Of a stretch of 55,233 nt of DNA, positions 13,842 through 22,116 are shown one piece after another (the first letter of the stretch is position 1; the number at the start of each line of letters is the position of its first letter). Below the pieces are notes generated by a model that saw nothing but the letters and a program-made list of their open reading frames with translations, did no database searches and was not told the origin of the DNA. The position numbers and the translations under genes are program-made. The stretch comes from Sterolibacterium sp. (GTDB lineage Bacteria > Pseudomonadota > Gammaproteobacteria > Burkholderiales > Rhodocyclaceae). The stretch covers positions 1 through 55,233 of the forward strand of contig JAHRWT010000109.1 in assembly GCA_019105045.1 (NCBI GenBank). Direction: 5' to 3'.

Positions 13842-13880
13842 TGCCTGATGCCGGATACCTGATATCCGCCCATCACGACG

Positions 13881-13913
13881 CGGCAAGCCTGGCGGCAACT
13901 TGCCGTTTAATTT
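13881..13913 (+). terminator. Terminator after the KefB-type gene
   Basis: CGGCAAG at 13881-13887 pairs with CTTGCCG at 13899-13905 and is followed by TTTAATTT. It lies 40 bases past the stop, between convergent genes. A second inverted repeat, GGATA-N5-TATCC, is at 13853-13867. Confidence 0.7.
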
Positions 13914-13920
13914 ATGGCGC

Positions 13921-14318
13921 TTATCCCCGATAAATCGTCTGCGGATCTTTCAACACGGCATCGACCTCCCGCCACTGGCCGCCATTCAGCTGACGATAGA
14001 AGCAACTGCGCCGCCCGGTATGGCAGGCGATGCCACCGGTCTGTTCGATCTTGATCAGCAGCGTATCGCGGTCGCAGTCCAGGCGCAGATCAATCACTTT
14101 TTGTGTATGGCCGGATTCTTCGCCCTTGTGCCACAGCTTGCCGCGCGAGCGTGACCAATACACGGCCTCACCGCGCGCTACCGTCAGTTGCAGCGCATCG
14201 CGATTCATCCAGGCGAACATCAGCACTTCACCTGTGGCCGCGTCCTGGGCGATGGCCGGAATCAGGCCCTGCTCATTCCAGGCGACGTCGTCCAGCCAGG
14301 CTGGCCGGGCCGAGTTGC

Positions 14319-14322
<4 letters not shown>
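13921..14322 (-). CDS. hisI: Phosphoribosyl-AMP cyclohydrolase
   Basis: Third step of histidine synthesis: opens the adenine ring of phosphoribosyl-AMP. A 133-residue single-domain protein with the metal-binding Asp/Cys motifs ([26 protein letters not shown]). It is the monofunctional form, so the preceding reaction (phosphoribosyl-ATP pyrophosphatase, HisE) needs a separate gene, which is not here. Its start overlaps the hisF stop by four bases. It is the last gene of the minus-strand his run and meets the KefB-type gene tail to tail. Confidence 0.95.
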
Positions 14323-15077
<755 letters not shown>

Positions 15078-15142: not shown

Positions 15143-15886
15143 TCAGCCTTGTGTCAGGCGATCGGCTTCCGCCTGAGCCTGCAGGAAATCCAGCTTGCCT
15201 TCGTAAATGGCGCGACCGGTAATCGCTCCCGTGATGCCCTCATCCTGCACTGCACACAGCGCCCGGATATCTTCAAGACAGCCGATGCCACCGCTGGCGA
15301 TCACCGGAATCGTCAATGCCTGGGCCAGCTTGACGGTCGCTTCGACATTCACTCCCGACAGCATTCCGTCACGGCCAATGTCGGTATAAATGATGGCTTC
15401 CACGCCATAGTCTTCGAATTTCCTTGCCAGATCGATGACATCATGTCCGGTCAGCTTGGACCAGCCGTCGACGGCTACCTTGCCATCGCGCGCATCAAGA
15501 CCGACTATGACGTGACCGGGAAAAGCGCCGCAGGCATCATGCAGAAAACCGGGATTCTTCACCGCTGCGGTACCGATGATGACATAGGAAATCCCGTCAT
15601 CGAGACAACGCTCGATGGTATCCAGATCGCGCAGCCCCCCCCCCAGTTGAACCGGAATTTCATCTCCTACTTCACGCAGTATGGATTTGATGGCTGCCGC
15701 GTTCTTCGGCTTGCCGGCAAACGCCCCGTTCAGATCGACCAGATGCAGTCGGCGGGCGCCCTGCTCGATCCAGTGGCGCGCCATGGCGGCCGGGTCTTCT
15801 GAAAAAATCGTGGCATCGTCCATATCGCCTTGTTTCAGGCGCACACAATGACCATCCTTGAGGTCAATCGCAGGTATCAGCAACAT
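15143..15886 (-). CDS. hisA: Phosphoribosyl-formimino-AICAR ribotide isomerase
   Basis: Isomerises ProFAR to PRFAR in histidine synthesis. A 247-residue barrel homologous to HisF, with [16 protein letters not shown] at the front (catalytic Asp) and the second catalytic Asp in [16 protein letters not shown] three codons upstream is an alternative start; the ATG at 15886 begins where family members normally do. The gap of 111 bp to hisH has no evident gene or hairpin. Confidence 0.95.
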
Positions 15887-15997
15887 AGTTGTCAAACGTG
15901 ACGAAAAATGAAATTTAGAGGAATGTCCGAAAAATCAGGCGCAAACCGCAACACTGGCGCGCGCAACACATGAACATGCGTCGCTCAGAAGCCAGTC

Positions 15998-16657
15998 TCA
16001 GGGCTTCCAGCGCATGAAGTTGGCCAGCAACTGCAGACCATCACGAGCACTTTTTTCCGGGTGAAATTGCACGGCAAAGATATTATCGCGCGCCACCGCA
16101 CTGGTAAAGGGGATGCCATAACATGTCATGCCGGCGCACATCGTCATGTCTGCTGGCGCGACATAATAGCTGTGTACAAAGTAGAAGCGCGCCCCTTCGG
16201 CAATGCCATGCCACAAGGGATGCGGCGGATGCGACTGGCCTGGGCACTGCTGCTGCACGTCGTTCCAGCCCATGTGCGGCACTTTCAGCCGGCTGCCGTC
16301 AGCGGCAAACATCTGATTCCCGGGAAAGCGCGGCACCCGCCCCGGCAAGATGCCCAGCCCCTCTACCTGGCCTTCTTCGGCAGCGCCAAACAGCAGTTGC
16401 AGGCCGACACAGATACCGAGAAAAGGTTTTTCTGCCGCTGCCTTGACGACCGCTGCACGCAATCCTCGTTGCGCCAATTGATGCATGCAGTCAGGCATCG
16501 CCCCCTGACCGGGAACGACGATGCGATCGGCCGCTGCCACTTCGGCGGCAGTTGCCGCCAGCACGATGCGTTCGCCATTGGCCACATGTTCGAGCGCCTT
16601 GACGACCGAGCGCAGATTGCCCATGCCGTAATCAACGACGGCGACGGTTCCTGCCAT
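15998..16657 (-). CDS. hisH: Imidazole glycerol phosphate synthase glutaminase subunit
   Basis: Class I glutamine amidotransferase that feeds ammonia to HisF. The 219-residue protein has the nucleophile elbow GICVGLQLLFG (catalytic Cys) and the C-terminal VQFHPEKS with catalytic His and Glu. Length and position, between hisB and hisA, are usual. It follows hisB after eight bases. Confidence 0.95.
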   Translation of the reverse strand: MAGTVAVVDYGMGNLRSVVKALEHVANGERIVLAATAAEVAAADRIVVPGQGAMPDCMHQLAQRGLRAAVVKAAAEKPFLGICVGLQLLFGAAEEGQVEGLGILPGRVPRFPGNQMFAADGSRLKVPHMGWNDVQQQCPGQSHPPHPLWHGIAEGARFYFVHSYYVAPADMTMCAGMTCYGIPFTSAVARDNIFAVQFHPEKSARDGLQLLANFMRWKP

Positions 16658-16665
16658 GATGGCGA

Positions 16666-17253
16666 TTACAGACGACCTTTGGTGGAAGGAATGCTGCCCG
16701 CTGCCCGATCATCGGCTTCGACCGCCATGCGCAAGGCCCGGCCAAACGCCTTGAATATCGTTTCCGCCTGATGGTGGGCATTCTCGCCACGCAGATTGTC
16801 GATGTGCAGCGTGATGCCGGCATGATTGACCAGCCCCTGAAAGAACTCGCGCACCAGGTCGACATCGAATCCGCCAATGCTTGCCCGCGCAAAATCCACG
16901 TTGAAGACCAGGCCCGGCCGCCCGGACAGATCGACCACCACGCGCGTCAAGGATTCATCGAGTGGCACATAGGCATGGCCATAGCGGCGCAGCCCTTTTT
17001 TATCGCCAATCGCCTGGGCCAGCGCCTGTCCCAGCGTGATGCCGACGTCCTCGACGGTGTGATGGGCGTCGATATGCAGATCGCCCCGGGCGTCGATTTC
17101 CAGATCGACCATGCCGTGACGGGCAATCTGTTCCAGCATGTGATCGAGAAAACCCACCTTCGTGGCCAGTTGGTTGCTGCCTGTGCCATCAAGATCAAGT
17201 TTGACGCTGACCTGGGTTTCCAGAGTGTCGCGAGTAACGCTGCCCTGCCGCAT
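16666..17253 (-). CDS. hisB: Imidazoleglycerol-phosphate dehydratase
   Basis: Dehydrates imidazole glycerol phosphate to imidazole acetol phosphate. A 195-residue monofunctional enzyme with the two metal-binding His motifs ([14 protein letters not shown] near the middle and [16 protein letters not shown] near the end). It lacks the N-terminal histidinol-phosphatase domain of the enteric fusion, so that activity must come from another gene. I take the ATG at 17253 ([10 protein letters not shown]) because the longer frame adds 54 residues unlike the family. It now faces hisC head to head, so it needs a promoter in the 136-bp gap. TTGTTT-N16-TAAGGT is a weak candidate. Confidence 0.95.
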
Positions 17254-17389
17254 GATGAGAGTCGCTGCAAAGTTGTAAAAGTCGAACCTTACGCAAAGGC
17301 GGGCGAAAAAACAATGGGTAGGCGATAATTCACCCTGCCAATTCGTCCTTTCTTGTGTCCCATTCTGTCCTGCTCTCCCCAGCCATCTC

Positions 17390-18493
17390 ATGAACAGCAA
17401 ATACTGGAGTGCCACCGCTCGCCGCCTGACACCCTATGTTCCCGGCGAACAGCCCAAACTCGCCAATCTGGTCAAACTCAATACCAACGAGAACCCCTAT
17501 CCGCCTTCGCCACGCGTGTTGGCGGCCATGCAGGCGGAAATGGGCACAGACGGCGCAACGTTGCGGCTTTATCCTGACCCGAGTGCGACTCAGCTCAGGC
17601 AGGTGATTGCTCAATATCACCAACTGCAAGCCGAGCAGATCTTCGTTGGCAATGGTTCGGATGAAGTGCTGGCCCATGCTTTTCTGGCTCTGCTCAAGCA
17701 GGATCGTCCGCTGCTGTTTCCCGACATCACTTACAGCTTCTACCCGGTCTATTGCGGGCTGTACGGCATTGAGTACACGCCGATCGCACTGGCTGCCGAT
17801 TACGCCATCGAGGTGGCGGCCTACCCGAGCGACAACGGCGGCATCATCCTGCCCAATCCCAACGCCCCCACCGGCCGCCTGCTGGCGCGCAGCGACATCG
17901 AGCAGCTGCTGCAGCGCAATCGCGAATCCGTGGTCGTCGTCGATGAAGCCTATATCGACTTCGCCGGGCCGGATGCCTCGATGCTGCCACTGATCGACCA
18001 ATATCCCAATTTGCTGGTGGTGCACACCCTGTCGAAATCGCGCTCACTGGCCGGTCTGCGCGTTGGCTTTGCTGCCGGTCATGTCGATCTGATCGAAGCC
18101 TTGCACCGCGTCAAGGACAGTTTCAATTCCTATCCACTGGATCGTCTGGCCCTGGCCGGGGCGGTGGCGGCCTATCAGGATCAGGCCTGGTTTGAACAAA
18201 ACTGCCAGGCCGTGATGCGCAGCCGTGAGCAGCTTGATCAAGGCTTGCAGGCACTGGGCTTTGAGGTTCTGCCCTCGGCGGCGAACTTCATTTTTGTCCG
18301 CCATCCGGCCCATGAGGCAGCTCAGTTGGCTGCGGCATTGCGGGCGCAGGGCATTATCGTGCGGCACTTCAAGCAGCCACGCATCGAGCAATTTCTGCGC
18401 ATCACCATTGGCACCGATCAGCAGTGCGCCCTGTTGCTCGACGCCCTGCGCAAGATATTGACACCAACGGCGCCTTCGCCTTCTCTAGCCTGA
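17390..18493 (+). CDS. hisC: Histidinol-phosphate aminotransferase
   Basis: PLP enzyme that transaminates imidazole acetol phosphate with glutamate. The 367-residue fold-type I protein has [12 protein letters not shown] near the start, [14 protein letters not shown], the conserved [10 protein letters not shown], and the PLP lysine in [15 protein letters not shown]. All expected motifs are present, so it looks functional. It is the only his gene on the plus strand: it lies exactly between hisB and hisD, where hisC normally sits in the same direction as the others. It is therefore divergent from hisB and convergent with hisD (32 bp apart). Confidence 0.95.
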
Positions 18494-18525
18494 GTCAGCA
18501 GCGCATCAGGCTGACGATGAGGACT

Positions 18526-19890
18526 TCAGGTCTTCGCCATGCGCAGTTCTGCCGAACGAGCATGAGCCGTCAGGGCTTCGCCGTGGGCCAGGCGGGAGGC
18601 GACCGAGCCAAGTTGCTGGGCGGCGCTGGCGGAGACTTCGATCAGGCTGCTGCGTTTCTGGAAATCATAGACCCCCAGCGGGCTGGAGAAACGGGCACTG
18701 CGTGAGGTGGGCAGGACGTGATTGGGCCCGGCGCAGTAGTCACCAATGGATTCGCTGCTGTAGTGGCCGAGAAAAATAGCGCCGGCATGGCGGATGTGGT
18801 CGACCAGGGCGCGTGGGTCGGCTACGGCCAGTTCCAGGTGTTCCGGCGCGATGTGGTTGGCAATCTGGCAGGCTTCGTCCAGGCTGCGTGTCTGGATCAA
18901 GGCACCACGGCCAGCCAATGAGGCCGCAATCACGGCGCGGCGCGGCATCTGCGGCAGCAGTTTGGCCATGCTGGCGGCGACTTGCTCGATGAAGGCTGCA
19001 TCCGGGCACAGCAGAATGGATTGCGCCAGTTCGTCGTGCTCGGCCTGGGCAAACAGATCCATCGCCACCCAATCGGGGTTGGCGCTGGTATCCGCGATGA
19101 TCAGCACTTCTGACGGCCCGGCCACCATGTCGATACCGACCACCCCAAAAACACGGCGCTTGGCGGCGGCAACATAGGCATTGCCCGGACCGACGATCTT
19201 GTCGACCTGGGGGATGGTTTGCGTGCCATAAGCCAGCGCTGCCACCGCTTGGGCGCCGCCGATGGTAAACACGCGATCGACCCCTGCCAGGTGAGCAGCG
19301 GCCAGCACCAGTGGATTCTTCTGTCCGCCCGGCGTCGGGGTGACCATGATCAATTCGCCCACTCCCGCCACCTTGGCCGGCAAGGCGTTCATCAACACCG
19401 AGGAGGGATAACTGGCCTTGCCGCCGGGCACGTACAGGCCGACGCGATCCAGCGCGGTGACTTTCTGCCCCAGGCGGGTACCGGTAAACGGCGGCGCCGT
19501 GTCCTCGTATTCCCAGGAATCGGCTTTCTGTTTTTCGTGAAAACTGCGGATGCGCCCGGCGGCGATTGCCAGCGCCTCGCGCTGGGCATCCGGCAGACTC
19601 TGCCAGGCAGCAGCGCATTCGGCGGCGGGCAGCTCCAGGGCGCTCAGATGGGCGGCCTCCAATTGATCGAAACGCCGGGTGTAATCGAGCACCGCCGCAT
19701 CGCCCTGGCTGCGTACCTGCTTGAGAATTTCAGCCACACTGCGTTCGATGTTGTCATCGGTCGCAGTTTCAAAAGCCAGCAGTTGATCCAATTGCCGGGC
19801 GAAATCATCGGCGCGGCTGTCCAGGCGGCGAACCTGCACGCTGCTCAAATCATCGGTATCCATCGTGTTCATGCCGCTCATGCCGCTCAT
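18526..19890 (-). CDS. hisD: Histidinol dehydrogenase
   Basis: Zinc enzyme that oxidises histidinol to histidine in two NAD-dependent steps. The 454-residue protein has [16 protein letters not shown], the conserved [11 protein letters not shown], the active-site [10 protein letters not shown] and EHLEL histidines, and the GPNHVLPT segment. The first codons are a tandem repeat with ATGs at positions 1, 4, 7 and 10. GGGAG seven bases before the first ATG supports that one. The start overlaps the hisG stop (ATGA). Confidence 0.95.
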
Positions 19891-20546
19891 GCAATGGCTC
19901 CCGCGAAAGCGTCGATGACCGGCTGCAGGATTTCCCGCTTCATTTTCAGTGCGGCCTGATTGACCACCAGACGCGAAGAAATCGGCATGATTTCCTCCAC
20001 TTCCACCAGATCATTGGCGCGCAGGGTGCCGCCGGTGGAGACCAGATCGACGATGGCATCCGCCAGGCCGACCAGTGGCGCCAGTTCCATCGAACCATAC
20101 AGTTTGATCAGATCCACATGCACGCCCTTGGCGGCGAAATGCTCGCGGGCGGTCTTCAGATATTTGGTGGCGATGCGCAGGCGGGCACCGCTTTTCACGG
20201 CCTGGCTGTAATCAAAATCCACCGGCGCGGCCACACTCATGCGGCACTTGGCGATGTTCAGATCCAGCGGCTGATACAGACCCGTACCGCTGTGCTCGAT
20301 CAGCACATCCTTGCCGGCGATGCCCAGATCGGCTGCGCCGTATTGCACATAGGTCGGCGTATCGGAAGCGCGCACGATGACCACGCGCACATCGGGCCGG
20401 TTGGTGCCGATGATCAGCTTGCGCGACTGCTCGGGATTCTCGTCCGGCACGATGCCGGCCGCTGCCAGCAAGGGCAGGGTTTCTTCAAAGATGCGCCCTT
20501 TGGAAAGAGCAATGGTAATGCCTTCGTTCACTGGAAGTTTCCGCAA
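19887..20546 (-). CDS. hisG: ATP phosphoribosyltransferase, short form
   Basis: First and rate-limiting step of histidine synthesis, joining ATP and PRPP. At 219 residues it is the short form, which lacks the C-terminal regulatory domain and works only with the HisZ subunit; no hisZ is in the window. Motifs include [18 protein letters not shown] at the front and the PRPP-binding [15 protein letters not shown]. It overlaps hisD and follows murA by about 40 bp in the usual betaproteobacterial order. Confidence 0.95.

Positions 20547-20588: not shown

Positions 20589-22116
<1,528 letters not shown>

Follow-up and report, generated by a model that had tools for sequence, protein, structure and literature searches.

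Inverted hisC is an old trait of the Rhodocyclaceae and is found in other families of Burkholderiales too. Probably the gene was turned round once in the distant past and stably inherited, with hisB and hisC sharing a two-way promoter in most sampled relatives and that promoter being replaced in the genus analyzed here. The window, meaning the whole stretch of DNA that was analyzed, is a 55,233-nucleotide contig of Sterolibacterium sp. (GenBank assembly GCA_019105045.1, contig JAHRWT010000109.1, forward strand).

In the proposed course of events, hisC would have been inverted anciently inside a hisGDCBHAFI cluster, splitting it into murA-hisG-hisD upstream and hisB-hisH-hisA-hisF-hisI downstream, with hisC opposite. 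This would have left hisB and hisC back to back, both transcribed out of the short spacer that separates them. The word CATGATANCATY, which most of the sampled Rhodocyclaceae carry and which is also found in several further families of Burkholderiales, would drive transcription in both directions from starts 23 bp apart, and the genus of the window would later have swapped it for two separate divergent promoters. A fuller version of this proposal, to which we would give about even chances, holds that the inversion gave hisB and hisC one shared core promoter, that CATGATANCATY is a dedicated two-way word kept at a few housekeeping gene pairs, that the orientation in which polymerase binds divides expression between HisC and HisB-H-A-F-I, that the word kept the pair back to back through several families, and that in one small-genome family, at loci like those of f18 (described below), both messages may be leaderless.

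The histidine cluster of the window

Genes were assigned from open reading frames and NCBIfam searches. hisI (13921..14322), hisF (14319..15077), hisA (15143..15895), hisH (15998..16657), hisB (16666..17253), hisD (18526..19890) and hisG (19887..20546) are all on the minus strand, and murA (20589..21866, minus strand, NCBIfam) adjoins hisG upstream, as in many relatives. The histidinol-phosphate aminotransferase gene hisC (17390..18493) is on the plus strand, opposite to the remaining his genes, in its usual slot between hisB and hisD. The gene order G-D-C-B-H-A-F-I is that of the compact his operon; the single strand of that operon is not kept. The preliminary description had reported this layout correctly, and was also right that hisC is intact: the 367-aa product scored 307.5 bits against TIGR01141 (cut-off 276.55), was the one HisC above that cut-off in the whole assembly, and carries a lysine, invariant in a 13-row HisC alignment, which we take to be the PLP site. 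A partial second HisC-like gene, truncated by a contig end, is found elsewhere in the same genome (C88:13843-14367; 75.7 bits, below cut-off).

The hisD and hisB halves both adjoin hisC, with a divergent intergenic region of 136 bp (17254..17389) on the hisB side and a convergent junction of 32 bp (18494..18525) on the hisD side, so that the his operon is split as had been described. The junction contains no terminator-like site, the single such site found falling within hisD (1.3 expected by chance). RNA folds of the junction and the divergent region gave z-scores of -1.92 to 1.00, the hisB-side strand of the divergent region forming a slightly stable fold (6 of 200 shuffles equally low), and Rfam returned no leader or attenuator at the gathering threshold between 13000 and 23000. 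hisE is absent 3' of hisI (13842-13920), and the sole PRA-PH (hisE family) match of this genome is on another contig (C115:8344-8604). A kefB-like gene (named by eye) is convergent toward hisI.

Inverted repeats were considered as a cause of the flip and set aside, just short imperfect pairs being present among the 25 longest of 40 pairs. Within that set the longest pair with one arm on either side of hisC was 19 nt at 79%, in agreement with the earlier observation that the borders carry no long repeat.

Orientation of hisC in relatives

The hisC and hisB genes of the window were used as queries against the window's own genome and 60 relatives, and the DNA around hisB was read for 59 of the relatives. 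For this analysis we coined the labels type A for the kind of hisC present in the window (at least 55% identity) and type B for copies of roughly 30-38% identity. The family of the window (f1) was recognized as the Rhodocyclaceae by G013, identical over 14,001 bp to Candidatus Desulfobacillus denitrificans (L037), and G017, identical over 12,283 bp to a Rhodocyclaceae MAG (L038).

Type A hisC adjoined hisB in inverted orientation in 31 of 37 Rhodocyclaceae genomes and was colinear in none. The exceptions were four genomes with colinear type B (G007, G016, G027, G030), one with hisC elsewhere and hisB adjoining hisD (G026), and one without a hisB match (G019). Among 24 genomes of other families, type A was inverted in two (G037, G053) and colinear in four (G050, G054, G058, G060), type B was colinear in 15, and in three the slot held no hisC (G040, G043, G055); type B was thus colinear in 19 of 19 cases. 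Four Rhodocyclaceae genera (L143, L156, L128, L140) have a colinear type B gene and lack the two-way word, a state pointing to replacement of hisC in the orientation of the operon.

The best 80 named records listed included inverted loci labelled Dechloromonas, Accumulibacter, Thauera, Zoogloea and Propionivibrio, colinear loci of Methylophilaceae and Thiobacillus, and a colinear hisG-hisD-hisC in Pseudomonas and Marinobacter. Polynucleobacter (L088) and Malikia (L113) were also inverted. In family f18 the gene was inverted at 22 of 22 loci (26 genomes searched) and in family f2 at 3 of 3 (5 genomes). In family f8, 19 of 60 genomes had type A hisC; it was beside hisB in three of these, inverted in all three, and in the other 16 no his gene was found in the 1.5-kb flanks.

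The preliminary description had treated the flip as private to this genome and had named an assembly error as what would refute it. The draft is indeed fragmented (121 contigs, 84.78% complete, 5.78% contamination), which would favor such an error; the same orientation is nevertheless present in all three other genomes sampled from the genus, one of which is assembled in 4 contigs, as well as in family members with a single-contig chromosome (G008, G013, G021, G029, G036). An error in this MAG was therefore rejected and has a negligible probability. The comparison of gene order with relatives that had been proposed as a check likewise gave inverted hisC family-wide, in the 31 of 37 genomes above, so this is no one-genome flip.

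Origin of the inversion

A locus tree was built from HisB, HisH, HisA, HisF, HisI, HisD and HisG (84 rows); the window itself was left out since its locus was too short, and its genus was represented by G001-G003. The f1 rows except G018 fell in a 49-row clade (support 93), of which 44 rows were inverted type A. Nested among the inverted rows were the four colinear type B genomes and G026, with its slot lacking hisC, which indicates that inversion came early in the family and later gave way to other states here and there. Inverted type A required 9 changes across the whole tree (at least 8 when counted by starred branches, with gains and losses combined), and the inverted loci of Burkholderiaceae, f18 and f2 were separate from Rhodocyclaceae with weak support (32). 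In a HisC tree of 117 rows the three states were strongly clustered (10 changes, where shuffling gave 51.5 on average), the deep forks being poorly resolved.

A reduced set of 49 rows (33 inverted, 16 colinear) was prepared for an AU test by dropping 6 solitary copies and 24 others that were long or redundant. In this set a single clade of all inverted HisC was not rejected (p 0.636), which is no proof of a single origin; the tree constrained to one clade scored 7.06 log units above the free quick tree, and the free tree needed 2 changes. Since Methylophilaceae, Thiobacillus and gammaproteobacteria have colinear copies, the simplest reading is one ancient inversion, and a single inversion is what we infer as the origin. 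Several flips, transfer and loss are also possible, given the poor resolution of the HisC tree and the at least 8 changes on the locus tree.

One such course is that type A hisC was lost from its slot and returned, or was transferred in, in the opposite orientation with its own promoter. The HisC of Malikia L113 is nearest Thauera (80%) and its other His proteins are not, so a transfer of hisC, or a mixed bin, is likely there; the L113 locus, from a MAG, also has large hisB-hisH and hisA-hisF gaps. The 16 of 19 type A genes of f8 that stand apart from other his genes would fit re-insertion as well, one of them (L182) having the full word upstream, as would a genome, G164, with hisC and hisB at separate places, each with its own copy of the word. 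Against these cases, inverted hisC occupies the same slot in several families, further families of the order have colinear type A there, and the AU test leaves one clade unrejected. Re-insertion is given a minor, though appreciable, share of probability, and the single ancient inversion is retained as the preferred origin.

Junctions on either side of hisC

Gaps were compared at 32 inverted loci (30 from f1, with G037 and G053; G002, L119, at a contig end, was left out) and at 22 colinear loci counted by hand (G042, at a contig end, left out). The hisB-hisC gap was 67-270 bp in 32 of 32 inverted loci. The hisC-hisD gap was below 200 bp in 11 and at least 300 bp in 14, and in the other 7 hisD was not found within ~5.4 kb. 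Thus 21 of the 32 inverted loci and 3 of the 22 colinear ones had hisD far away (at least 300 bp) or absent (Fisher p 0.0002, the genomes being related and not independent). The hisC-hisD inserts were varied and comprised chromate-transporter-like, TerC-like, reverse transcriptase and cytochrome c genes (named by eye). They were present in G001, G006, G020, G023, G024, G033, G036 and others, the chromate-transporter-like inserts in three genera and the reverse transcriptase gene in G036 (also named by eye). A divergent side that is kept beside a convergent side that is free is expected if the promoters of both genes sit between hisB and hisC.

These gaps bear on the idea of a non-contiguous operon, in which transcription from murA-hisG-hisD would run through antisense hisC into hisB-hisI. 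The 32-bp convergent junction of the window, with no terminator-like site, would allow it, and operons of this kind are described (PMC7154746). Read-through is unlikely at the 21 of 32 loci where hisD is at least 300 bp away or not within ~5.4 kb, and a conserved promoter-like block precedes hisB; we regard this explanation as quite improbable. At those loci, at least, hisB-hisI need a promoter of their own, as the preliminary description had anticipated.

A conserved word between hisB and hisC

The hisB-hisC spacers of most relatives have in common a near-symmetric word, CATGATANCATY; this point, which goes beyond the preliminary description and required the relatives, concerns a promoter-like element that the genus of the window has lost. 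At least 9 of 11 word bases were present in 46 of 52 intergenic regions (L046, with a gap of -1, excluded), whereas 200 mononucleotide shuffles gave 0.52 regions on average and never more than 4 of 52. The exact form ATGATANCAT was present in 41 of 52, always in one orientation and never in the reverse sense. Six of the 52 regions fell under 9 of 11 bases (G000-G003, G009, G053); within the 46 matching spacers, the word of G006 is a variant. The match in G020 (CTTGTTACCAT) is probably due to chance.

On the strand toward hisB the word reads TGNTATCAT and on the strand toward hisC TGATANCAT. The hexamers TATCAT and TANCAT overlap by 2 bp on opposite strands, giving overlapping -10 elements on both strands in relatives with the word. 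The TG of each strand pairs with the CA in the hexamer of the opposite strand, and the only freely variable inner base of the word is the n of the hisB-side TGn. With -7 placed at the outer T of each hexamer, this geometry predicts starts 23 bp apart. No -35 element emerges on either side of the word in the 52 intergenic regions. Over ten core positions the word holds about 19 bits (hand sum over the 46 matching spacers). Where hisB and hisC do not form a divergent pair, 9 regions upstream of hisC, hisB or hisG were listed with at least 9 of 11 bases, the single full match being that of the solitary hisC of L182. As judged from its sequence, CATGATANCATY seems readable as two overlapping extended -10 elements and hence as a candidate bidirectional promoter, and we infer that it would be a promoter firing both ways.

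Genome-wide distribution of the word

The word was present in 72 copies in 61 f1 genomes, and a reversed control pattern in 3. All copies except that of the G004 his locus were examined (71 of 72), and 66 of the 71 lie between divergent genes: 40 at hisB/hisC, 12 at maf/yceD, 10 at smc with dapC or dapD, 2 at gluQ/arnT-like, and one each between hisC and a histidine-phosphatase-superfamily gene (L252) and between earP and uvrC (L265). The non-divergent copies consist of one at a hisB that follows cheB on the same strand (L267) and four that are elsewhere or unclear. The maf/yceD copies are at L221, L227, L230 and nine more loci and the smc copies at L229, L231, L245, L246, L260, L261, L268, L275, L281 and L286; the sense of the word relative to the genes is constant at both sets. 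For the smc/dap loci, 7 were named by search, the DapD of L245 by Pfam, and the DapD of L281 and the DapC start of L286 (contig end) by eye. Of the representatives searched, Maf, DapC and GluQRS scored above the family cut-off, YceD and the ArnT-like protein below theirs, and SMC, a fragment, below its own; UvrC and EarP of L265, the histidine-phosphatase-superfamily protein of L252 and CheB of L267 were named by Pfam.

In G164 (L252 and L267), where hisC and hisB are apart, each has CATGATACCATTGCCCG, an identical 17-base stretch with the word, as if hisB and hisC each need it. The four type B genomes of f1 contained no copy. Words with one base broken were found at 44 sites (T at the hisC-side -7) and 83 sites (base at the hisB-side -7). 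Twenty of each were examined, and 1 of these 40 had even one named gene in divergent position, so that divergent placement is lost when either end of the word is broken (1/40 against 66/71 for intact words). Long open frames did not separate intact words (47/71) from broken ones (13/20 and 11/20) and gave no evidence either way.

A transcription factor site that regulates several divergent pairs, rather than a core promoter, might produce a similar pattern. The word is rigid (~19 bits), rare (72 copies, 61 genomes) and near-palindromic, with no -35 element, all of which would suit an operator. Its targets (hisB/hisC, maf/yceD, smc/dapC or dapD, gluQ/arnT-like, earP/uvrC) are, on the other hand, unrelated housekeeping pairs, and its free inner position coincides with the n of TGn on the hisB-side strand. 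The hexamers of f18, moreover, have start codons 6-7 nt away, too near for an upstream operator. We consider a regulator site unlikely and prefer the reading of the word as a two-way promoter.

In f18, 15 of 22 loci have ATGATACA[GT]T in the same geometry, the word being degraded or absent in the remaining 7. The nearest in-frame hisC ATG is 6-7 nt past its hexamer in 14 of 15 word loci. The hisB ATG is 6-7 nt past its own hexamer in 9 of 15, all of genus g51; in the other 6, all of g102, it is 18 nt away and AAAGGAG precedes it. Both start codons are at 6-7 nt in 8 of 15 (positions taken from the sequence). The spacers between hisB and hisC matches at L196-L210 are 21-36 bp in 10 of 15 and 63-84 bp in the other 5, in some of which hisC seems to start earlier. 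Start codons placed where transcription is expected to begin agree with leaderless messages, and an upstream operator would hardly account for them. Messages in f18 are possibly leaderless in both directions, and the whole spacer may be little more than the predicted promoter.

Loss of the word in the genus of the window

No copy of the word was found genome-wide in the window's own genome or elsewhere in its genus (G000 and G003 searched), and the best match in the window intergenic region is 6 of 11 (7 of 11 in the other sense). Overlapping opposed -10 elements are not present in the window, and with the genus lacking the word a bidirectional promoter there is unsupported. A candidate hisB promoter (17286..17314, minus strand) consists of a -35 TTGTTT (17314-17309), a 17-bp spacer and a -10 TAAGGT (17291-17286). 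It is weak by consensus (3/6 in each hexamer, hand count) and lies within a block that is shared by G000-G003 and retained in part by G020. A candidate hisC -10, GATAAT (17324..17329, plus strand), is conserved within the genus. A consensus scan picked neither of these; the one promoter-like site that it returned (17279-17252, minus strand; 0.5 expected) overlaps the hisB start and was set aside.

The two candidates predict starts ~57 bp apart (by hand), which, if they are promoters, makes them two separate divergent promoters and not one bidirectional promoter. These candidate sites would then be the promoters of the window, and its genus seems to have replaced the word by two ordinary, separate divergent promoters.

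Comparison with known systems

The his operon is a classic case in operon evolution; here its order is kept, yet across a family one of the genes faces the other way without having left its slot. Should the word be a two-way promoter, it would offer a natural and deeply conserved example in which both starts serve one pathway, and one that recurs at several unrelated gene pairs; it would then be testable whether selection keeps bidirectional promoters for the coupling of two genes. No description of the divergent hisB/hisC arrangement or of the word was found in the open-access papers searched; the titles of ten among the 29 papers that contain the ten-base string concern other subjects.

Excerpts of a review state that his gene order is conserved in proteobacteria (PMC10138114), and those of a 2007 paper that the complete his operon formed in beta-proteobacteria (PMC1963479). 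The cluster of the window resembles the compact his operon in having the same genes in the same relative order, with hisC between hisD and hisB, and differs in that hisC is on the other strand and transcription is divided. The partial text used for this comparison contains no match to "orientation" or "inver-". With the non-contiguous operon (PMC7154746), it shares the feature of an oppositely directed gene that lies amid genes of a single pathway; the difference is that the flanking halves are often separated in relatives here, the flanks not having been kept together across the 32 inverted loci (hisD far or absent in 21).

The closest likeness in the promoter is to the symmetric -10 bidirectional promoters of Warman, Grainger and others (PMC12825309, PMC10268837), in which opposing -10 elements overlap as they do in the word. 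Divergent starts of that class are 7-25 bp apart; distances of 18 bp are the commonest, 10 and 23 bp also being common (PMC12825309), and the 23 bp predicted here is one of these three classes. Set against those bidirectional promoters, the hisB/hisC element, predicted from sequence, is a 12-base word of fixed form that carries a TG extension on either strand, and it is conserved over families at the same gene pairs and absent in the window. The class of bidirectional promoters is already known; the hisB/hisC case is a new instance of it, from which the lineage of the window has since moved on.
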